From Acidihalobacter ferrooxydans (lineage in GTDB: Bacteria > Pseudomonadota > Gammaproteobacteria > DSM-5130 > Acidihalobacteraceae): a stretch of DNA of 64,000 nucleotides. Where the stretch lies: assembly GCF_001975725.1 (NCBI RefSeq), contig NZ_CP019434.1:3312792-3376791 (forward strand), read 5' to 3'. The position numbers and the translations under genes are program-made. This document shows, in pieces, positions 13,247-25,274 of the stretch. The notes under the pieces are model-generated. The model searched no databases and was not told the DNA's origin. It worked only from the letters and a program-made list of their open reading frames with translations. Position 1 is the first letter of the stretch. Each line of letters opens with the position of its first letter.

Positions 13247-14098
13247 CTATTCCAGACCACGCATACGCGCATTGCGTCGGCGCAGCAGCTCCAGCGTCAG
13301 AAGCATGACCACCGAGAGCAGGATGATGAGCGTCGCGATCGCCAGGATCGTCGGATTGATGTTGTAGCGTAAGTTGACCCACATTTGCAGCGGCAACGTG
13401 CGTTGTTCGGGGCCCGCAAGGAACATCACGACCACCACTTCGTCGAACGACGTCATGAACGCGAACAGCGCGCCGGAGATAATCCCGGGCATCACCAGCG
13501 GCATCGTCACTTTGAAAAAAGTGTACCAGGGGCTGGCGCCCATGCTCTGCGATGCGCGCACAAGTTGATAATCAAAACCGGCAAGCGTCGCGGTGACCGT
13601 GATCACCACGAACGGGATACCCAGAATCGAGTGCACGATAATGATCCCGATGTACGTATTGACCAGATGCAACGAGGAAAAGTAGAAAAATACCGCCGTT
13701 GCCGTAATGATCAGCGGCACCACCATCGGCAGTATGAGCAGACTGCTGATGAATTGCTTGAGCGGCATATGCGAACGCGACAAGCCCAGCGCCGCCAGCG
13801 TGCCCAGGATAGTTGCGATGAGGGTGGCAATCGGCGCGATGATGAAGCTGTTGCGAATCGCGTGCATCCATGACGGGTCCGTGAACAGATGGTGATACCA
13901 GCGTAGCGAGTAACCCGCCGGGTCCAACGTCAGCATTTTGTGGGTGAACACGAAATACGGCGTCGACGTGAACGACAGCGGAATAATGATAAGCAGCGGG
14001 AGCATCAGGAAGATCAGGACCATGATGCAGAACCCGCGAAAACCGAAATACCATAACCACTGCGCGGGCCCGGCGTATGGCGGCAGATTGATTTTCAT
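13247..14098 (-). CDS. Polyamine-type ABC transporter permease (PotI/PotC-like)
   Basis: Inner-membrane permease, 283 residues, last gene of a four-gene importer operon. It has about six hydrophobic segments and the binding-protein-dependent transport motif (SQSMGASPWYTFFKVTMPL, an EAA-type loop that contacts the ATPase). The FDEVVVVMFLAGPEQRTLPL block is typical of PotC/PotI. The start chosen is the ATG at 14098, which overlaps the upstream permease stop (ATGA). The frame is open further upstream, but without support. The substrate is probably putrescine/spermidine, though related opine or amino-acid uptake systems cannot be excluded. Confidence 0.9.
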   Translation of the reverse strand: MKINLPPYAGPAQWLWYFGFRGFCIMVLIFLMLPLLIIIPLSFTSTPYFVFTHKMLTLDPAGYSLRWYHHLFTDPSWMHAIRNSFIIAPIATLIATILGTLAALGLSRSHMPLKQFISSLLILPMVVPLIITATAVFFYFSSLHLVNTYIGIIIVHSILGIPFVVITVTATLAGFDYQLVRASQSMGASPWYTFFKVTMPLVMPGIISGALFAFMTSFDEVVVVMFLAGPEQRTLPLQMWVNLRYNINPTILAIATLIILLSVVMLLTLELLRRRNARMRGLE

Positions 14099-15351
14099 CC
14101 GAGGCTGACCTTTCCAGCGCCGACGAGGCGGTTGTAGATAAGGTAAAAAACCAGGGCCGCGCCCGTCAGCAGCGTACCCAGCGCGGCCGCCAGTCCCCAA
14201 TTCAGCGATTGCTGAACGTTATAGACGATCATGTTGCTGATGAACTGCCCCGATTGTCCGCCGACCAACTCAGGCGTGATGTAGTAGCCGATCGAGAGGA
14301 TAAACACCAGCAGGCCACCCGCGCCGATTCCGGGGAGCGTGAGCGGCATATAGATTTTCCAGAAGGCGCGCGCGGGATGCGCACCGAGCGAGATGCCCGC
14401 ACGCAGATAACTCGGCGAGATGCCGCGCATGACGCTGTACAAAGGAAGAATCATGAACGGCAGTAGCACCTGCGTCATGGCGACGATGGTGCCGAACTGG
14501 TTGTAAATGAGCTTGAGGCGGTGTTGATCGCCGATGATGTGCGCCCAGACCAGGACGTTGTTGATGACCCCGTGCCCCTGCAAGAGCACGATCCATGAGG
14601 TCGTGCGTACAAGCAACGAGGTCCAGAACGGCAGCAGCACGCAGATCATCAGGAGATTGGACGTTCGATCCGGCAGCGCCGTCAACCAATACGCCAGTGG
14701 ATAACCGAGCAGGACCGTCAGCAGCGTAATGACCGCACTCATCCAGAACGTACGAATGAACAGCGGCACGTAGACCCTGTCGTAGACGGGTTTTTGAACG
14801 ATTTGTCCCTGCTGGTTGTACTTCATATCCAGCGAGGCCAGATAGAAATCGGCCGTAAACGGCGCACTCTGGCGTTTGAGCAGTCGCCAGATCGGTTTCT
14901 CGCCCCACGCTTTGTCAATCTTGATCAGCGCCGCTTTCCAGGGGCCGTGATCGACCCTCGATATGCGCATGGCGGTTTTGTTGATCAGCGTAAAACTGCC
15001 CGGCTGCTCCTCATTCAAGCGCTTGGCGATGCGCCCGAACGTATGGTCGGCGCGTGCGTGCTTCAAATCTTCCGCGACGGCCTTGTACGCCGCCTCGGGC
15101 ACCGGCGTCGAGGGAGACCAGTCGCGCAGCGCCTGCACTGTGTGCGGCATATATTCGGGTATGGTGGGATTGGCGATGCTCAGCCAGAACATTTTGAACA
15201 AGGGCAGAAAGAAAAACACAAGAACGAACAGCAACAGAGGCACCGTGAGCGAAAACGCTCCGAGCCGCCGACGTCGTTCGGTGCGCCGCAGCGCCCGTTT
15301 GAGGTCGGCACCTCCCTCCAGTGTCAATGTTTCCGGGCTGGTGGCTGCCAT
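14095..15351 (-). CDS. Polyamine-type ABC transporter permease (PotH/PotB-like) with long loop
   Basis: Inner-membrane permease, 418 residues. Helix 1 is at about residues 32-55; a long hydrophilic stretch (about 58-195) follows before the remaining five helices. The transport-domain EAA loop is GISLGAHPARAFWKIYMPLT. Typical PotB/PotH proteins are about 285-320 residues, so the loop adds over 100 residues, presumably in the periplasm. It couples to the downstream permease by a four-base overlap. Confidence 0.9.
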   Translation of the reverse strand: MAATSPETLTLEGGADLKRALRRTERRRRLGAFSLTVPLLLFVLVFFFLPLFKMFWLSIANPTIPEYMPHTVQALRDWSPSTPVPEAAYKAVAEDLKHARADHTFGRIAKRLNEEQPGSFTLINKTAMRISRVDHGPWKAALIKIDKAWGEKPIWRLLKRQSAPFTADFYLASLDMKYNQQGQIVQKPVYDRVYVPLFIRTFWMSAVITLLTVLLGYPLAYWLTALPDRTSNLLMICVLLPFWTSLLVRTTSWIVLLQGHGVINNVLVWAHIIGDQHRLKLIYNQFGTIVAMTQVLLPFMILPLYSVMRGISPSYLRAGISLGAHPARAFWKIYMPLTLPGIGAGGLLVFILSIGYYITPELVGGQSGQFISNMIVYNVQQSLNWGLAAALGTLLTGAALVFYLIYNRLVGAGKVSLG

Positions 15352-15466
15352 GCGTGGCGCTCTCCAATTCCGAATGACTTAATGGCCCATCGCCCCGCGC
15401 TGCGTCGCACGCAGCACGGGATTTGGGTATCGATTCTCATCACCGCAGCGTGGCCTGCAGGCGCTC

Positions 15467-16663
15467 CTAGCTGGACAGCCAGGCGCTGAACCGCTGCTTG
15501 AGTTGCGGTCCGTAGTTCGACCAGAAGCTCGCGTTCTTGTGAATCGCCACCGCCAGATGCTCGGGCGTGGTCGGCATGAACGGCATCATTTCCAGCTTCG
15601 GGTTCTTGTAGTACGTACCGATGAGCGGAATCGAGGACTTGCGCGCCGGCGCGTACGCGATGTACTTGGCCTGAGCGGCGAGCTGTTTGGTACTGGTCGA
15701 GAAAGCCAGGAACTTCATCGCCAGCGCCAGACGGTCTTTCGGCAGCCCCGCCGGAATAACCCAGCCGTCCCATTCGTAGAGCGCGCCATCCCAGATGAAA
15801 TCCAGCGGCTGGTGATCGGCGGCGATGGCGTTGAAGATGCGTCCGTTGTAAGCGCTGGCGATCACTGCCTGACCGGAAGCGAGCATCTGCGGCGGCTGCG
15901 CGCCCTGCGTCCACCAAATGCAGTCCTGTTTGATGGTGTCGAGCTTTTTGAACGCGCGATCGACGCCGGCCGGCGTGGCCAGCACCTCGTAAATCTTGTC
16001 GCGCGGTACGCCGTCGGCATACAGCGCCCATTCGAGATTGCCCGCAGGAATTTTCTGCAGCGCGCGCGTACCGGGGAAATTTTCCAGATCAAACACATCC
16101 TTGATCGACTGCGGCGCCTTGTCCTTGAACGCTGTCTTGTTGTACGACAGCAGCGTGTCATAGGCGATTTCCGGCACGAACCCTCCGGTCTTGCCGTCGC
16201 CGCCAAGCGAACCCTTGACGAAATCTTCCGTCGCCGGCGTGCCGTCAGGCGCCGGGGGCAAATCCTTGTCGTAGTTGATCTCATGCACCAGCCCCTGCGA
16301 ATACAGTCGCGATGCGGGGGCCTGGAGAATGTCCAGAAGATCCCAGGACACGTTGCCGGTCTGTTCCTGCGCGGTCAGCAGCGCGGGGCCGGATGCGGCT
16401 TTCTCGATATTATTGAAGGTGACGCCGGTCATCTTGGTGAAGGGTTTTTGATAAGCCATTACCTGACTGAACTGATAGGCCCCGCCCCAAGACACCACAT
16501 TGAGCGTGTTGACGGAACTGGCGAAGGCCGCGCGCGTCCACAGCGCCCCCAGGGAGGACAGTGAGATAACACCCGCAGTCTTGGCTCCCAGCGCCAGAAA
16601 ATCACGGCGGCTGATGCCCAGTTCGTCGATAATGATGTCTGAATCGTTGTCTTTACGCTTCAT
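15467..16663 (-). CDS. Polyamine-type ABC transporter substrate-binding protein (PotD/PotF-like)
   Basis: Periplasmic solute-binding protein, 398 residues. The N-terminus carries a twin-arginine motif (SRRDFLALG) and a hydrophobic stretch ending in AAFA, so export by Tat is likely. The mature chain begins NTLNVVSWGGAYQFSQ, the typical start of the PotD family, and contains WDLLDI and PEIAYDTLLSYNK. The start chosen is the ATG at 16663, preceded by GGAGAAAG; a longer frame upstream lacks a binding site. It sits between the ATPase and the permeases. Confidence 0.9.
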   Translation of the reverse strand: MKRKDNDSDIIIDELGISRRDFLALGAKTAGVISLSSLGALWTRAAFASSVNTLNVVSWGGAYQFSQVMAYQKPFTKMTGVTFNNIEKAASGPALLTAQEQTGNVSWDLLDILQAPASRLYSQGLVHEINYDKDLPPAPDGTPATEDFVKGSLGGDGKTGGFVPEIAYDTLLSYNKTAFKDKAPQSIKDVFDLENFPGTRALQKIPAGNLEWALYADGVPRDKIYEVLATPAGVDRAFKKLDTIKQDCIWWTQGAQPPQMLASGQAVIASAYNGRIFNAIAADHQPLDFIWDGALYEWDGWVIPAGLPKDRLALAMKFLAFSTSTKQLAAQAKYIAYAPARKSSIPLIGTYYKNPKLEMMPFMPTTPEHLAVAIHKNASFWSNYGPQLKQRFSAWLSS

Positions 16664-16756
16664 GGTTTCTTTCTCCGTCTGAGGATGTGATGTTGCAATT
16701 CTGCCGGATCGGGCCGCGCATCGACGTCGTGAATCCGTCATGCGCCCGGGTGGCAT

Positions 16757-17857
16757 TTACGCGGCATCCAGCGCCCGGCAGTCATCGCTGTGCCAGCCGA
16801 CCTTGATCGACATGCCGGCCTTCAGGCGCTGACCTGCGCCCTGGTGGTTGGGACGTTTGAGCACGAAATCGTTTTGTCCGACGACGCTGATACGTGCGCG
16901 GATATGATCGCCAAGGTATATAAGCTCCTCGATCCGCGCATCGAAAATATTCTGGAAACTACCCGGCTCCGGATTGATCATCACCCGCTCGGGACGCACC
17001 GACAACGTTGTCTTGCTACCCACGCCATCGACATTGACCGGCAGGGCATGAATCAGCGAACCGTCCCCAGCGCGAACGACCACGCTGTTGTCGGCCACCT
17101 CCAGCACCGCGCCGGGAATACGGTTGTTCTCGCCAATGAATTGCGCCACGAACGTGCTGGACGGCGCTTCGTAGAGTTCATCGGGCGTCGCCAGTTGCTG
17201 AATGACGCCATCGTTAAACACCGCGATGCGATCCGACATCGTCAACGCTTCGCTCTGATCATGCGTCACGTAAACAACCGTCACGCCCAGGCTGTCATGA
17301 ATGTGCTTGATCTCGTACTGCATCTGTTCGCGCAACTGCTTGTCCAGCGCACCGAGAGGCTCATCCATCAACACCAGCTTGGGTTCAAACACCAGTGCGC
17401 GCGCCACCGCGACGCGCTGCTGCTGCCCGCCGGACAACTGGGCCGGCCGGCGTTCGCCGAACCCCGCCAGCCCGACCATATCCAGCACTTTTTCAGCCTG
17501 GCCCCGAGCCTCGGCGTTGGCCATCTTGCGCACCTTGAGCGGGAACATCAGATTCTCGATCACCGTCATGTGCGGGAACAGTGCGTAGTTCTGGAACACC
17601 ATTCCGATATCGCGCTTGTGCGGCGCGACATGGTTGATCGGCTTGCCGTCGAGAAAAATTTCCCCATGCGTCGCGGTTTCGAACCCGGCCAGCATCATCA
17701 GACAGGTGGTCTTGCCCGAGCCGCTGGGACCGAGCATGGTCAGAAATTCTCCCGCCTCGATGTCCAGATTGAGATTCTTAACCACCAGCGTTTCGCCGTC
17801 GTAGCTTTTCTGTACGCCATCGAAGCGGACATATGCATCGTTATTCTGGTCGGGCAT
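16757..17857 (-). CDS. potA: Polyamine-type ABC transporter ATP-binding protein (PotA-like)
   Basis: Cytoplasmic ATPase, 366 residues, first gene of the importer operon. Walker A is GPSGSGKTTC, the Q-loop is MVFQNYALFPH, the signature is LSGGQQQRVAVARAL, Walker B is LVLMDEPLGALD and the switch histidine is in VTHDQ. A C-terminal TOBE domain (about 270-360) is present, as in PotA. There is no convincing Shine-Dalgarno sequence before the ATG. A (TTGG)7 tract starts 27 bases upstream, and a 770-base stretch without genes precedes it. Confidence 0.92.
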   Translation of the reverse strand: MPDQNNDAYVRFDGVQKSYDGETLVVKNLNLDIEAGEFLTMLGPSGSGKTTCLMMLAGFETATHGEIFLDGKPINHVAPHKRDIGMVFQNYALFPHMTVIENLMFPLKVRKMANAEARGQAEKVLDMVGLAGFGERRPAQLSGGQQQRVAVARALVFEPKLVLMDEPLGALDKQLREQMQYEIKHIHDSLGVTVVYVTHDQSEALTMSDRIAVFNDGVIQQLATPDELYEAPSSTFVAQFIGENNRIPGAVLEVADNSVVVRAGDGSLIHALPVNVDGVGSKTTLSVRPERVMINPEPGSFQNIFDARIEELIYLGDHIRARISVVGQNDFVLKRPNHQGAGQRLKAGMSIKVGWHSDDCRALDAA

Positions 17858-17883
17858 CAGATCACACCATCAGATCGATTCGA

Positions 17884-17911
17884 TTGGTTGGTTGGTTGGT
17901 TGGTTGGTTGG
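17884..17911. repeat. Tetranucleotide repeat (TTGG)7 upstream of potA
   Basis: Seven perfect TTGG units (CCAA on the potA strand) lie 27 bases upstream of the potA start codon, in its probable leader or promoter. Tracts of this kind change length by slipped-strand mispairing and can switch or tune expression of the next gene. Confidence 0.85.
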
Positions 17912-18574
17912 AAAACAGAAACGGTTTGGATCCGCATGAAGCCCGGTCACGGACGGCGTTTTTCGCGGCGCATCGCGCGGACAGATCACCACCGGCAACG
18001 GCACAGATGCCCACGCCAGCCCCAAAGCTCGACTTGTCTGCATGAACGCAGGCCAAGATACCCCGCTGCCTATCCTCAGATACTTCCAGATCACAAGTGC
18101 CCCCCGACGCGCGCCCTCTTAACGTTGCAAGGGCTTTTGATCCGATGCCATGTCGCTCGCATGCACAAAGTCCGCGTCTTGAAAATCGTTCGGCGACCAC
18201 CCTATCGCGCCATCATCCTGACGGCCTTGACAAACCGTTGCGGACGACAGGTGGCTTATTCGCCAGTTAATGCCTTTCTTTATATAAACCCGTTATCGAA
18301 AAAGATGCAAGAAACCGCATGGTTTTTACAGAACTTAGGCAGTTTACGCAAACGTAATATTAATATAAAAATCAATTTATTATAGAAAATCAGCTCATAC
18401 TGAATCGACACTAAAAAATGCGCCGCTTTTACTGAGAATCCAGCACAATAATGCGCAAAAAGAGCGACTTAACGCCCACTCAATGACCGCGGTGGTCACA
18501 ATGTGCTGATAGCGGTCAATTGCGCGGGGCATAGCCCGAGCAACCTAGGAGCCTGTCTACTTTCGGCAAACAGA
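17912..18574. other. Long intergenic stretch upstream of potA
   Basis: About 660 bases without a supported gene between the potA leader and the proX terminator. The part at about 18260-18420 is AT-rich and out of character with its surroundings. It should contain the potA promoter, but I saw no clear boxes, inverted repeats of note or known RNA. An open frame across it on the plus strand is an extension of a potA shadow. Confidence 0.4.
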
Positions 18575-18596
18575 CGGGGCTTCCGAAGAAGCCCCG
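18575..18596 (-). terminator. Terminator after proX
   Basis: A perfect 8-bp stem (CGGGGCTT / AAGCCCCG) with a 6-base loop, 31 bases after the proX stop. On the minus strand it is followed by TCTGTTTG, a modest T-rich tail. Confidence 0.65.
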
Positions 18597-18627
18597 CCAT
18601 CACTTGCCTGGCGAAGGACTCAGTCGC

Positions 18628-19494
18628 TCACGACACCCAACTGTTGACCATCTTCGGATGCGCTTTGATCCACGCCCCTACTGCAGCCTTGACGCTGGTG
18701 CCATTCTTGACCTCCAGCATCAAAGCGGATAACTGCGCGCGGGGAATCGCGAAGCGGTTCAAAAAGGCATACACCGCGGGCGACTTCTTCGCCAGCGCTG
18801 GGTTGGCCATAGTCCCGATGTAACCGCCCTTACCGTAGATATGCTTGGGATCCTTGAGGAACTTGATGTCGAATTTGGCCCACATCCACATCGGCGTCCA
18901 TGCGGTCACGGCGATCCACTGCTTGTTCTTGATCGCGCGCTTCAGCTGCGCGGTCATCGCCGCAACGGAACTGGTCTGCAGATGAAAACCACTCAGTCCG
19001 TAGGCCTTGATCGCCTTCTCGGTATCGATATTGATGCCAGCGCCGGCGCCTACACCGACGATACGGCCCTGGAACTTGCCGGCATATTTCTTGAGGCCTG
19101 CGATCGTGTTCACAGGCACGTATTTGGGCACAGCAATGCCGAGCCGCGTGCCGGTCACGTTAGGCCCCATGGGCACAACCTTCTGCCAGAGCTTTTCGTA
19201 GTAAACCTTATGCGTCGTGGGCAACCAGGCCGTGAGCATTGCGTCGGTATGATCGCTGGCCACGGCCTCCCACATCGGACCGGCGCCGGATGCAACAAGG
19301 TCGACCGGGTTGCCCAGACGTTGCTTGATGACTGCAGCGGCCAAATGGGTCGTGATATCACTGGACGGCCAACTCTGCACATAACCGAGTTTAATGGTCG
19401 GCTTGTCCGCAGCGTGCGCGGCGGGCAATAGCCCCATACCGAGGGTCGCGGCGGCCAGCAGGCCTGCCTGCAAAATACGTTTGAATTGCTTCAT
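18628..19494 (-). CDS. proX: Glycine betaine/quaternary amine ABC transporter substrate-binding protein
   Basis: Periplasmic binding protein of the OpuAC/ProX family, 288 residues. A Sec signal peptide is present (MKQFKRILQAGLLAAATLGM, cleavage after AAHA). The mature chain starts IKLGYVQSWPSSDITTHLA and contains AWLPTTHKVYYEKLW and WIAVTAWTPMWMWAKF, tryptophan-rich segments typical of quaternary-ammonium binding. The start chosen is the ATG at 19494, which gives a clean signal peptide. It is the last gene of a proV-proW-proX operon; the substrate is probably glycine betaine or proline betaine for osmoprotection. Confidence 0.9.
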   Translation of the reverse strand: MKQFKRILQAGLLAAATLGMGLLPAAHAADKPTIKLGYVQSWPSSDITTHLAAAVIKQRLGNPVDLVASGAGPMWEAVASDHTDAMLTAWLPTTHKVYYEKLWQKVVPMGPNVTGTRLGIAVPKYVPVNTIAGLKKYAGKFQGRIVGVGAGAGINIDTEKAIKAYGLSGFHLQTSSVAAMTAQLKRAIKNKQWIAVTAWTPMWMWAKFDIKFLKDPKHIYGKGGYIGTMANPALAKKSPAVYAFLNRFAIPRAQLSALMLEVKNGTSVKAAVGAWIKAHPKMVNSWVS

Positions 19495-20366: not shown

Positions 20367-21605
20367 TTAGGCGACGCTTTCCACGACAGGATGCTCGCCG
20401 CCGCCAACCGCATCGGTCGAACCTTGCGCCAGCGCGGCGAGCAATGTGCTCTTATCCACAATGCCGACGACGCGCCCGCGTTCATCGAGCACGATGATCG
20501 GTGAGGTTTTTGCGTTGACCAGGTGTATCAGATCGCTCAGACGGGTATCGGGCGATGCCGTCGGCAACGCTTCCAGAGCATCATCGGCAAGCCGCTCGGC
20601 ATCGCGCTGACGGATCGCCGTATCCAGCCCGACGTAGCCGCGCAATCGGCGGGCACTGTCAACCATTACCAAGCCACCGAAACCGCTGCGCTCCATCTTA
20701 CGCAGCAGGGTGCGCGGCGCGTCTTCTGGATGCGCCGTGGTAGTAGGCTGGCGCATGATCTGCCCTGCGGTCAGCACCTGTGTGCGGTCAGCCCCTTCGA
20801 CAAAGGCGGACACGTAATCATCGGCCGGATGCTCGATAATTTCCTCAGGTGTGCCCACCTGAATCAACCGACCGTCACGCATGATGGCGATGCGATTACC
20901 CAGCTTGAGCGCTTCGTCGAGATCGTGCGAAACGAACACAATGGTCTTACCGAGGCGGTCCTGTATTTCCAGCAAATCATCCTGCAACTGGTTGCGAATC
21001 AACGGATCGAGTGCGCTGAACGCCTCATCCATAAGCAGTATTTCCGGGTCGGCGGCCAACGCGCGCGCCAGCCCGACGCGCTGTTGCATGCCACCCGAAA
21101 GTTCAGATGCGTACTTGCTTTCATAGCCGCCCAGGCCAACGGTCTCGATGACTTCCTGCGCCTTCGCGCGCCGCTCGACTTTGGGCACGCCCTGGATTTC
21201 CAGGCCAAACTCCACGTTACCCATCACCGTGCGGTGCGGCAGCAACGCAAAGCTCTGAAACACCATGCCAAACTTCTGCCGACGCAGCTCTCGCAGCGCT
21301 TTCACACCGAGTTCGGTGATGTCCTGACCATCGATATGGACACGCCCGGTGGAGGGTTCGTGCAACCGGTTGATCAAGCGCAACAGCGTGGATTTACCGC
21401 TGCCGGAAAGTCCCATGATGACGAAAATTTCGCCGCTCATGATCTCCATCGAGACATCAAATGCACCAACGACAGCCGCGTGCGCACTCTGTACCTCGGC
21501 CTTAGCCTTGCCGGCGCGCAGATCGTCGATAGCGCGCTGAGCCTGCCGTCCGAACACTTTGCTCACAGACTCCAGACGAATCCTGGTGCGGGGTTCTTTT
21601 ATCAC
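20367..21605 (-). CDS. proV: Glycine betaine ABC transporter ATP-binding protein with CBS domains
   Basis: ATPase of the betaine importer, 412 residues. It starts with the ProV-type extension ([14 protein letters not shown]), then Walker [12 protein letters not shown], signature [16 protein letters not shown] and Walker [15 protein letters not shown]. Two CBS domains follow (about 275-400), which in this family sense ionic strength or nucleotides and gate transport. It is the first gene of the operon, reading away from an AT-rich 199-base region shared with the gene at 21805. Confidence 0.94.
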
Positions 21606-21804
21606 GTATGACCTGAGTTATTGCGGTTGATCTTTTTCACCCTAACCTATTAAGAAATTATATGCAAAATACTATAAAAATAGGATTAAAAAACATAAAA
21701 CTATCTTAAATAACCACAATTTTTCTTATATTTATCGGGAAAATATCTATTACACGCATATAGTTTATCGTATTATTCGTACAAACCTTAAGGGGCGATA
21801 CTCG
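21606..21804. promoter_or_regulatory. AT-rich divergent promoter region, proV / unknown gene
   Basis: 199 bases, very AT-rich compared with its flanks, between two divergent starts. It must hold the proV promoter and that of the gene at 21805, which has AAGGGG ten bases before its ATG. No clear palindrome was found. Confidence 0.5.
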
Positions 21805-22293
21805 ATGGACACAATGGCTGTACTCACCGGGAAAAAGCTCGACAAAATGATTGAGGAGGGCGGCATCGGCTACTGGAAGGCGGATGCCAGGCGCGTGGCA
21901 CAATGCCTCTATATTCTGGCCATTGCCAATGCCAGGAGCGGCATTACCCAATTCAGTTCAGCGGACCAAAACAAAGGTTATTTGCTCGGCAGAATTGCCG
22001 GCACTTTCCGCCCACCAGAACACCCTGACCGACTGGTGATTGTCATCAGCGAATATGCAGAAATCGACCTGCCAAACGCTTGGCCAGGCTACCGAAACCC
22101 TGTGTTCTATACCGATCTTGAGACACTCGGCATTGATGCCCGTGCGCTCGACTGGAAAACGTTTCCGTTTATCAAACGTGACGATACGGCGAACGATACC
22201 GTTCAGGCGCTGTCTGTTGTAGAGGCTAAACTTGGCTTGGCCAAAAAATTCGGGGTCAACCCGGACCAGATCGAGATTATCATTCGCGGTTGA
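21805..22293 (+). CDS. Conserved-looking hypothetical protein
   Basis: A 162-residue soluble protein; I cannot assign a named family or function. It begins LTGKKLDKMIEEGGIGYWKA and contains a mixed alpha/beta core with GYLLGRIAGTF, VIVISEYAEIDLPNAWPGYRNPV and a C-terminal helix-strand unit VVEAKLGLAKKFGVNPDQIEIIIRG. There are no signal peptide or membrane segments. A good ribosome-binding site (AAGGGG) and a clean stop support it as real. It is followed 40 bases later by an amidotransferase-like gene and may form a small operon with it. Confidence 0.75.
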   Translation: MDTMAVLTGKKLDKMIEEGGIGYWKADARRVAQCLYILAIANARSGITQFSSADQNKGYLLGRIAGTFRPPEHPDRLVIVISEYAEIDLPNAWPGYRNPVFYTDLETLGIDARALDWKTFPFIKRDDTANDTVQALSVVEAKLGLAKKFGVNPDQIEIIIRG

Positions 22294-22333
22294 TAGCTCG
22301 CCGCCTGTCACAGACGACCGGAGCGCAAGACGG

Positions 22334-23050
22334 ATGCATCACCCCATCACGATAGGCCTGATCGGCGACTATTCACCCGAGGTAGTCGCTCATCGCGCTA
22401 TTCCCCATGCGCTTGCCCAGGCAGCCGAAGCCCTGCGATTCGGGATCGGCTTCGAATGGCTGCCAACGACTGAAATCGATTCGACGAGGCGACTTTCCAA
22501 GTTCGACGGCCTATGGTGCGTACCGGCCAGTCCATACCGGAACACGCATGGCGCCCTGATGGCGATTCGCCATGCGCGCGAGAACGCGATTCTCTATCTC
22601 GGCACATGCGGCGGTTGCCAGCATGCCATCCTCGAATATGCACGCAACGTACTTGGCTGGATCGATGCCGATCATGCCGAAACCACACCGGACGCTGGAC
22701 GCGCGGTCATCGCGCCGCTTGCCTGTGCACTGCTCGACGCAAGTGGCACGGTCGACCTCGTTCCAGGCAGCCGCCTTGCGGCGATTTACGGCCAGGAGTC
22801 CGCTACCGAGCAGTACCGTTGCAGCTTTGGCATCAATGAAGCATTTCGAGCGAAACTCACACAAGGACCGCTGCGCCTGGCAGCAACCGACGCGGAGAAT
22901 GGAGAGGTGCGCGCAGTGGAACTGGATGGCCACCCCTTTTTCATCGCTACGCTCTTCCAGCCGGAACGCGCCGCACTGCGGGACGAGCCCGCGCCATTGA
23001 TCAAAGCATTCGCGGCAGCATGCGTAACGGAGCGCGAGCAATCGCAATAA
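22334..23050 (+). CDS. Glutamine-amidotransferase-like protein (CTP synthase C-terminal-related)
   Basis: A 238-residue stand-alone class I glutamine amidotransferase fold resembling the C-terminal half of CTP synthase. It starts ITIGLIGDYSPEVVAH and carries the nucleophile elbow YLGTCGGCQHAILEYARNVLG with Cys92 as the expected nucleophile. A late HPFFIATLFQPERAA strand stands where CTP synthase has its HPE-type motif, here altered so that the His-Glu pair is uncertain. The family is, as I recall, described as CTP-synthase-related with some selenoprotein members; a second cysteine (Cys95) follows the nucleophile here. The start chosen is the ATG at 22334. The substrate is unknown. Confidence 0.8.
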   Translation: MHHPITIGLIGDYSPEVVAHRAIPHALAQAAEALRFGIGFEWLPTTEIDSTRRLSKFDGLWCVPASPYRNTHGALMAIRHARENAILYLGTCGGCQHAILEYARNVLGWIDADHAETTPDAGRAVIAPLACALLDASGTVDLVPGSRLAAIYGQESATEQYRCSFGINEAFRAKLTQGPLRLAATDAENGEVRAVELDGHPFFIATLFQPERAALRDEPAPLIKAFAAACVTEREQSQ

Positions 23051-23096
23051 ATGACGACCAGCGAACAAACCCGCAAGGCGGATTTCACTCATAAAC

Positions 23097-25274
23097 TCAG
23101 GCCAATATCTCCAGTTTCGCGTAAGCCAGCACCAGCCACTTGGCGCCATGATGGGCGAAGTTGACCTCGATCCGCGCCTGCGGACCCTGCCCCTCGTAGC
23201 CCGTCACTACACCCTCGCCGAATTTCGCGTGCGCGACGCGCTGACCGACGCGGATGCCGGGCGGCGCGTCGTCGAGCGGCGCACGTCGCGCCGACGCGGG
23301 ACGCGACCAGGACGGACGGCTGACTTGTGCGCGTGGGCGGACTTCCTCGATGAGTTCGGCGGGAATTTCGCCGAGAAAGCGTGAAGGTAGATTGTAGGTC
23401 TGCTGGCCGTGCAGGCGGCGCGTCTCGGCGGCGGTGAGGATCAGGCGCTGACGAGCGCGGGTGATGCCGACATAGCACAGCCGGCGTTCCTCTTCGAGCC
23501 GCCCCGGTTCCTCGATGGACATGCGGTGCGGGAACAGCCCTTCTTCCATGCCGCACAGAAAGACGAGCGGGAACTCCAGCCCCTTGGCCGAGTGCAGCGT
23601 CATCAGTTGCACACAGTCCTCCCAGGCTGAACCCTCGCCCTCGCCGGCCTCCAAAGCGGCGTGTGCGAGGAAGGCATCGAGCGCCGTCATGCCGGCGTGT
23701 TCCTCGGGGTCGAGGTGGAAGCCGCGTGCGGCGTTGGCGAGCTCCTCCAGGTTCTCCACCCGCGCCTCGCCACGCTCGCTCTTGTCCCTGGCGAAAAAGG
23801 CCTTGAGCGCCGAGCCTTCGACCACGCGCTCGACCTGTTCGTGCAGTTCCAGACCCTGCGTTTTCGCCGCCAGCGCCTCGATCAGTTCGAGGAAGCCGCG
23901 CAGCGCGTTGGCGGCGCGGGTGGCCAGCGTGCCCGCAGCCAGCACGGCCTGCGTCGCACGCCACAGGGAACTGCCTTCGGCCCGCGCCTGATCGCGCACA
24001 ACCTGCAAGGTGCGGTCCCCGACGCCGCGCGTCGGCTGATTGACCACGCGCTCGAACGAGGTGTCGTCGTCACGATGAGCCACCAGCCGCAGATAGGCCA
24101 GCGCGTCCTTGATCTCGGCCCGCTCGAAAAACCGCTGGCCACCGTATACGCGATACGGGATGCCGCGCCCGACCAACGCCTCTTCGATCACGCGCGACTG
24201 CGCGTTGGAGCGGTAAAGCACGGCAACTTCGCTGCGTTTACCGCCATAATCGACCCAGTCTTCGACCTGATCGACGACGTAACGCGCTTCGTCCAGATCG
24301 TTGTAGGCCATGTACAGGCGCAGCGGCTCGCCGGGTTCGCCTTCGGCCCAGAGCTGCTTGCCGAGCCGCCCCTGGTTATGGGCAATGACCGCGTTGGCGG
24401 CGTCGAGGATAGACGGCGTGGAGCGGTAGTTCTGCTCCAGACGCACGGTCTGCGTGCCGGGAAAATCGCGCGCGAAGTCCTGGATGTGTTCGATGCGCGC
24501 GCCGCGCCAGCCGTAGATCGACTGATCGTCGTCGCCGACCGCGAACACCGGCGAGTGTTCGCCGGCCAGCAGACGCAGCCAGGCGTATTGCAGCGCGTTG
24601 GTATCCTGGAATTCGTCGACCAGCAAATGTCGGAAACGGCGCTGATAGTGGCCGCGCAGTGCGTCGTTGTCGCGCAGCAGTTCCAGCGCGCGCAGCAGCA
24701 GCTCGGCGAAATCGACCGCGCCGGCCTGCCGGCAGGCGGCCTCATAGGCGCTGTAGATGCGGATAAACTGGGCGCTGGCCGGATCGCCGGTGTCGTCCAG
24801 ATGCTGCGGGCGCAGACCTTCGTCCTTGCGCCCGTTGATGAACCACTGCGCCTGGCGCGGCGGCCAGCGCGCCTCGTCCAGCTCCAGCCCGCGCAACACG
24901 CGACGAACCACACGCAGTTGGTCGTCACTGTCGAGGATCTGGAAGGCCTGCGGCAGCCCGGCTTCCCGCCAGTGCTGGCGCAGCAGACGATGCGCGAGGC
25001 CGTGAAACGTCCCCAGCCACATGCCGCTGGCGGGGATCTGCATCAGCGCCTCCACGCGCCCGCGCATTTCGTGCGCGGCCTTGTTGGTGAAGGTGACGGC
25101 GAGCAGGCTGTACGGCGAGAGGCCCTCGACGCGAATCAGCCAGGCGATGCGGTGAGTGAGCACGCGGGTCTTGCCGCTGCCCGCGCCGGCGAGCACGAGC
25201 ACCGGTCCGGGCGGCGCGGTGACGGCCTCGCGTTGCGCCGCGTTGAGGCCGGAAAGCAGATCGGAAACGTCCAT
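23097..25274 (-). CDS. uvrD: DNA helicase II UvrD
   Basis: Superfamily 1A 3'-5' DNA helicase for nucleotide excision and mismatch repair, 725 residues. Motif I is GAGSGKTRVLTHR, motif Ia VTFTNKAAHEM, motif II LLVDEFQDTN, motif III VGDDDQSIYGWRGA, motif IV LEQNYRST, and motif V/VI are LMTLHSAKGLEF and YVGITRARQRL. The C-terminal end (GQRVAHAKFGEGVV to the stop) is the Tudor-like domain that binds RNA polymerase in UvrD/PcrA. It converges with the amidotransferase gene and is divergent from sucA. Confidence 0.96.
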   Translation of the reverse strand: MDVSDLLSGLNAAQREAVTAPPGPVLVLAGAGSGKTRVLTHRIAWLIRVEGLSPYSLLAVTFTNKAAHEMRGRVEALMQIPASGMWLGTFHGLAHRLLRQHWREAGLPQAFQILDSDDQLRVVRRVLRGLELDEARWPPRQAQWFINGRKDEGLRPQHLDDTGDPASAQFIRIYSAYEAACRQAGAVDFAELLLRALELLRDNDALRGHYQRRFRHLLVDEFQDTNALQYAWLRLLAGEHSPVFAVGDDDQSIYGWRGARIEHIQDFARDFPGTQTVRLEQNYRSTPSILDAANAVIAHNQGRLGKQLWAEGEPGEPLRLYMAYNDLDEARYVVDQVEDWVDYGGKRSEVAVLYRSNAQSRVIEEALVGRGIPYRVYGGQRFFERAEIKDALAYLRLVAHRDDDTSFERVVNQPTRGVGDRTLQVVRDQARAEGSSLWRATQAVLAAGTLATRAANALRGFLELIEALAAKTQGLELHEQVERVVEGSALKAFFARDKSERGEARVENLEELANAARGFHLDPEEHAGMTALDAFLAHAALEAGEGEGSAWEDCVQLMTLHSAKGLEFPLVFLCGMEEGLFPHRMSIEEPGRLEEERRLCYVGITRARQRLILTAAETRRLHGQQTYNLPSRFLGEIPAELIEEVRPRAQVSRPSWSRPASARRAPLDDAPPGIRVGQRVAHAKFGEGVVTGYEGQGPQARIEVNFAHHGAKWLVLAYAKLEILA

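Follow-up and report, generated by a model that had tools for sequence, protein, structure and literature searches.

On balance, the repeat in front of potA in Acidihalobacter ferrooxydans is most probably a lineage-specific microsatellite. It would have arisen by slippage during replication in the 5' leader of the pot operon, which is non-coding and probably transcribed, and it would have little or only a graded effect on the operon. We regard the tract as a candidate for a mutable site, and not as an established switch. All coordinates below refer to the window, the whole stretch of 64,000 nucleotides that was analysed.

Position and sequence of the tract

Seven perfect TTGG units with a total length of 28 bp were found on the + strand at positions 17884 to 17911, both in the sequence itself and by repeat scans. 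This confirmed the unit number given in a first-pass annotation of the same DNA, which was also right about the position and the class of the repeat. As potA is located on the minus strand, its message reads (CCAA)7 before the ATG. The A of the potA ATG lies at 17857, and a spacer of 26 nt (17858 to 17883, minus strand) separates it from the tract. The annotation had placed the tract just before the potA start, as was observed, but had counted the distance as 27 bases. The spacer contains the stops of all three upstream frames, the third of which overlaps the A of the ATG.

The sequence is that of A. ferrooxydans DSM 14175 (strain V8, CP019434), an iron- and sulfur-oxidising halotolerant acidophile, and the published assembly was obtained from about 13x Illumina and 355x PacBio coverage with four gaps (PMC5477407). 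The number of seven units is thus a consensus value for a single strain.

Two further repeats were observed in the leader. The 9-bp direct repeat CATCAGATC, with copies 13 bp apart at 17855 to 17876, duplicates the region of the start codon. Through the duplication another ATG (17870) arises out of frame and opens a frame of two codons, ATG GTG TGA (17862 to 17870, minus strand), that ends just before the potA ATG. The presence of this repeat in the spacer would fit a slippage-prone stretch. The motif CAGATCAC (GTGATCTG in the sense of potA) occurs three times in the potA leader, with + strand starts at 17858, 17982 and 18087, and one of these copies touches the potA start codon. In the window four copies were counted on the + strand and three of the reverse complement, and in 400 kb of the genome 13 were counted on both strands. 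The motif was picked post hoc, and its copies may represent an operator or chance.

Rarity of the tract

The sequence TTGGTTGGTTGG had five matches in the whole one-contig genome of 3,448,835 bp, all of them inside the tract, and (TTGG)4 had no match in 100 dinucleotide shuffles. Run lengths were compared in 464 kb, consisting of the 64-kb window and 20 spaced stretches of 20 kb (about 13% of the genome). Within these, apart from one run of N, the tract exceeded in length every other perfect repeat with a period between 1 and 8, and the next longest perfect run of period 4 measured 14 bp compared with 28 bp for the tract. The expected number of such tracts in 464 kb was about 5e-9, a rough figure extrapolated from the tail of the shorter runs. 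Tandem Repeats Finder gave the tract a score of 56, the third of 29 rows in the window, while the two higher rows (scores of 63 and 65) were imperfect arrays of longer units. The tract is genuine, with a length far above what chance would give, and a perfect short-unit tract of such length is one of the features by which a contingency locus is recognised.

Among 369 genomes of the class, six or more TTGG units were present in two, this genome and one other (G236). The second genome contains ten CCAA units (contig C231, L129, 830 to 869) soon after an ATG; a 7-base repeat comes next, and then an open frame. The units lie beside an apparent nonribosomal peptide synthetase gene, named from the reading of its ORF only, and resemble a repeat at the 5' end of a gene.

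The pot operon and its relatives

The genes behind the tract all lie on the minus strand. potA itself (16757 to 17857) encodes a PotA-subfamily ABC ATPase according to its profile match. It is followed by a gene for a solute-binding protein (SBP_bac_8; 15467 to 16756 for the frame as listed, its true start being probably later), a PotB/PotH-like permease gene identified by profile match (14095 to 15351), and a second permease ORF in the position of PotC (13247 to 14200), which was named from ORF reading only. The potA product passed the PotA subfamily TIGR01187 with 375.7 bits (cut-off 355.6) and reached 357.1 bits with the spermidine/putrescine equivalog NF006987 (PRK09452), below its cut-off of 482 bits. 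The earlier name of polyamine importer thus holds at the family level only, with polyamines as putative substrates.

potA adjoins proX, part of an osmoprotectant importer, and the accessible part of a genus comparison lists proX for this strain (PMC6396713). Between proV and a UvrD/Rep-like helicase gene, the stretch 21598 to 23109 with ORFs at 21805 to 22293 and 22232 to 23050 had no DNA match in a genome of the same genus (G001), where the flanking matches are about 110 bp apart.

In this same-genus genome proVWX was present with 74% DNA identity, the homology ended at the end of proX (window position 18632), and the next gene after proX was read from its ORF only as a KefB-like antiporter. 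For two genomes of the same family (G002 and G003) the homology ended at 18652. The pot operon and its leader (13247 to 18627) were absent beside proX in all three, and a search for the binding protein found no orthologue in any of them at E<=1e-60. The nearest orthologues at this threshold, with 70% identity, came from a different class of the same phylum (two genomes), and one with 66% was found in Acidimangrovimonas sediminis. A further genome (G004) gave matches of 43%, 31% and 36% to PotA, PotB and PotC in the stretch around its distant PotA relative, so a different and only distantly related operon of this type exists in the family. Judged from these alignments, leader and operon are specific to this lineage among the relatives compared, which would fit either acquisition by transfer or loss from the other relatives.

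The repeat was also searched for in the leaders of PotA orthologues. The 68 loci with a PotA match at E<=1e-120, overlapping copies included, yielded 47 distinct leaders, a number that includes the potA leader of this genome; three loci (L065, L042 and L038) had been dropped since an in-frame start was not found for them, and 137 to 300 nt were scanned per leader. Three or more CCAA/TTGG units occurred in none of the 46 other leaders, and three of the 46 (L059, L039 and L078) carried a run of seven of one base. When the leader was compared with 56 genomes, homology was found in the own genome and as one 45-bp match of 84% in G033 (E 1.2e-5), which lies in AT-rich sequence and was taken as chance. 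The leader was not found in phages, and two pattern matches to PotA in viral contigs were both left without confirmation.

Promoter and ribosome-binding signals

Changes in tract length had been proposed to alter the spacing of a promoter or of the ribosome-binding site. Between 17800 and 18700 a promoter tool reported no site under its rules (mean of shuffles 0.9). In our own sigma-70-like scan, the best hexamer pair with its second hexamer ending in 17858 to 17959 had 6 of 12 matches. The sole perfect -10-like hexamer of the 770-nt intergenic stretch, TATAAT at 18384 to 18379 (minus strand), may belong to a promoter; its -35 partner has 3 of 6 matches, and it lies about 470 bases upstream of the tract. 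With no better pair near the tract, the proposed effect on promoter spacing had no support from sigma-70-like signals.

The core Shine-Dalgarno pairing of the potA start with the 16S tail amounted to -1.5 kcal/mol, a value matched or exceeded by 62% of about 2000 random 20-mers. Pairing as weak or weaker was found for 30% of 240 gene starts of this genome, a rough percentage because the gene calls were crude and took the first ATG as the start. Among the 46 orthologue leaders 37 reached -4 or better, and four were as weak as potA or weaker. Two bases before the ATG lies GUGAUC (17860 to 17865, minus strand), a candidate partner of GAUCAC near the 16S 3' end, and with it the pairing with the whole tail of this genome's own 16S end reached -9.1 kcal/mol. 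Such a value or a better one was obtained for 5% of random 20-mers and, equally roughly, for 13% of the 240 starts. The ribosome may pair GUGAUC with that part of the tail. The remark that potA has no convincing Shine-Dalgarno sequence thus applies to the core, but leaves aside this candidate. As the tract ends upstream of the candidate pairing region, additional units would not change the distance of that region to the ATG, and the proposed effect on ribosome-binding spacing was not supported.

These signals bear on the possibility of a true contingency site, at which unit changes at a high rate switch or grade the transcription or translation of potA by a route invisible to consensus scans, e.g., through an unmapped promoter or a site for a regulator (compare the AGAT tract of uspA2). 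We consider this unlikely, with a chance that is nevertheless appreciable. The class of the repeat, its perfection and its placement speak for such a site, and so do the unit that it shares with variable CCAA tracts of Haemophilus influenzae and the upstream tetranucleotide tracts that alter the transcript level in Moraxella catarrhalis (accessible parts of PMC2651432 and PMC7302503, respectively). Against it are the lack of a promoter-like pair near the tract and the count of seven units, which is among the lowest given for tracts in those parts of the two papers. In addition, there was no other perfect tetranucleotide run of more than 14 bp in the 464 kb, and hence no sign of a wider set of contingency loci. 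A literature search joining Acidihalobacter with phase variation, outside of which most subscription journals lay, found no report. If the tract varied and changed the output of potA, a free-living extreme acidophile would show phase variation through a simple repeat, and this in an operon for solute uptake located beside an osmoprotectant importer. Such variation is usually met in host-adapted bacteria and in surface structures.

Reading frames crossing the tract

All three frames stop between the tract and potA, the stops ending at -12 (the frame of potA), -4 and +1 relative to the ATG. Switching of potA by frameshift is thus excluded, and a tract inside the reading frame of the gene, another feature by which contingency loci are recognised, was absent. 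Two upstream frames, traced with unit numbers from 2 to 12, always ended at one of these three positions, and the stop rotated with the unit number.

One of the frames crossing the tract is a candidate ORF of 26 codons (17857 to 17937, minus strand) with an ATG at 17937 and a TGA that overlaps the potA ATG. At seven units it ends in UGAUG over the potA start, which from the sequence would be an attractive layout for reinitiation. Its ATG had weak upstream pairing with the 16S tail (-4.2). The frames crossing the tract had codon scores of -0.12 to -0.32, compared with a median of 0.40 for gene pieces of 50 to 110 codons and about -0.05 for off-frame pieces. The gene set used for the codon and start comparisons was crude (ORFs of >=150 aa with GC3 >0.70), and the frame from 17937 has only 8 codons before the tract, too few to be judged by this score. 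A frame of 112 aa that crosses the tract had no Pfam or NCBIfam match. Together with the codon scores, which were not coding-like, this left a hidden gene through the tract unsupported.

The rotating stops and the UGAUG overlap are what would be expected of a coupling by leader peptide, in which a short frame is translated across the tract, ribosomes reinitiate at potA, and the unit number modulo 3 places the stop at -12, at -4 or over the ATG, giving three expression levels. The low codon scores, the weak pairing at 17937 and the missing family match of the 112-aa frame argue against it, and we judge it improbable. The extended proposal, in which the tract would serve this acidophilic chemolithotroph as a contingency site and adjust solute import through the leader-peptide stop and hence the efficiency of reinitiation, is more improbable still. 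If true, it would represent graded, frame-dependent phase variation of an importer by a repeat outside its coding sequence.

Structure of the leader

The predicted mean opening of the region from -12 to +5 varied by no more than 0.04 over 4 to 12 units in leaders cut at 60, 120, 250 and 400 nt. Below four units the predicted opening of the start region shifted by up to about 0.12. A leader piece of 263 nt did not fold more stably than shuffled sequences (z 0.50), 130 of 200 of which equalled or surpassed its stability. The suggestion that translation depends on leader structure was therefore not supported. Rfam gave no match above the cut-off for 17600 to 18800, with two sub-threshold hits (E 0.6 and 0.99), and a known structured leader was rejected on this result and the z value. 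At seven units the tract itself was predicted to be mostly unpaired (0.75 to 0.85).

Two-layer GGTT quadruplexes occur, and the GGTT strand, the template strand of potA, might form one that slows replication or transcription. The + strand piece folded at -12.6 kcal/mol with a quadruplex and at -11.4 kcal/mol without it. This difference is small and was obtained with RNA parameters applied to DNA, and the tract is not conserved; such a role appears very improbable. Least probable of all is a small RNA with UUGG repeats that binds the CCAA tract, in the manner of RepG at the tlpB leader (accessible part of PMC8295292). The predicted unpaired state of the tract and the RepG precedent speak for it. 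Against it, a search for exact matches to TTGGTTGGTTGG, hence for long perfect partners, gave none elsewhere in the genome, and Rfam gave no match above its cut-off in 17600 to 18800.

Probable origin and effect of the microsatellite

Our preferred reading remains the microsatellite born by slippage. In the message it would form a mostly unpaired stretch of C and A only, ending 26 nt before the start codon. Its length probably varies over generations, as the class and length of the repeat suggest. Since the tract does not belong to the coding sequence, precedes the ribosome-binding region and lies away from any recognisable promoter, changes in unit number would most likely alter PotA synthesis little, or only in a graded manner. 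The closed frames, the lack of a promoter-like pair, the flat opening, the z value of 0.50, the non-coding character of the crossing frames, the 46 leaders lacking the repeat and the loss of homology at the end of proX in the three relatives all count in favour of this reading. Against it stand the extreme rarity of a perfect 28-bp tract in this genome, its placement directly ahead of the leading gene of an operon, a location of regulatory repeats in some other bacteria, and the change in predicted opening below four units. The weak core Shine-Dalgarno pairing (-1.5) would also give room for an unusual mechanism of initiation.

Comparison with known repeat tracts

The leader of tlpB in Helicobacter pylori contains a G-repeat of variable length that is read by the small RNA RepG, as described in the available part of PMC8295292. 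Both are simple repeats in a messenger leader. However, according to that part of the paper the tlpB repeat is a homopolymer with variable length and a cognate small RNA, whereas the potA tract is known from the sequence of one strain alone.

Variable CCAA(n) tracts of H. influenzae are found at hgp iron-acquisition genes and at a putative glycosyltransferase gene, with 4 to 39 units in the part of PMC2651432 available. Their repeat unit is identical to that of the potA tract in gene sense. The tracts of H. influenzae act by frameshift within the reading frame, whereas the potA tract does not belong to the frame, and every frame that leaves it meets a stop before potA begins.

In M. catarrhalis, AGAT(n) is located 132 bp upstream of uspA2, a gene for a surface protein, and comprises 13, 14 and 18 units in three listed genomes; its length varies and the transcript level changes with it (accessible part of PMC7302503). 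Like the potA tract, it is a tetranucleotide tract upstream of a gene and outside the coding sequence. The potA tract differs in having seven units, located 26 bp upstream of a gene for an importer ATPase, compared with the 13 to 18 units at 132 bp from a surface protein gene given in that part of the report.
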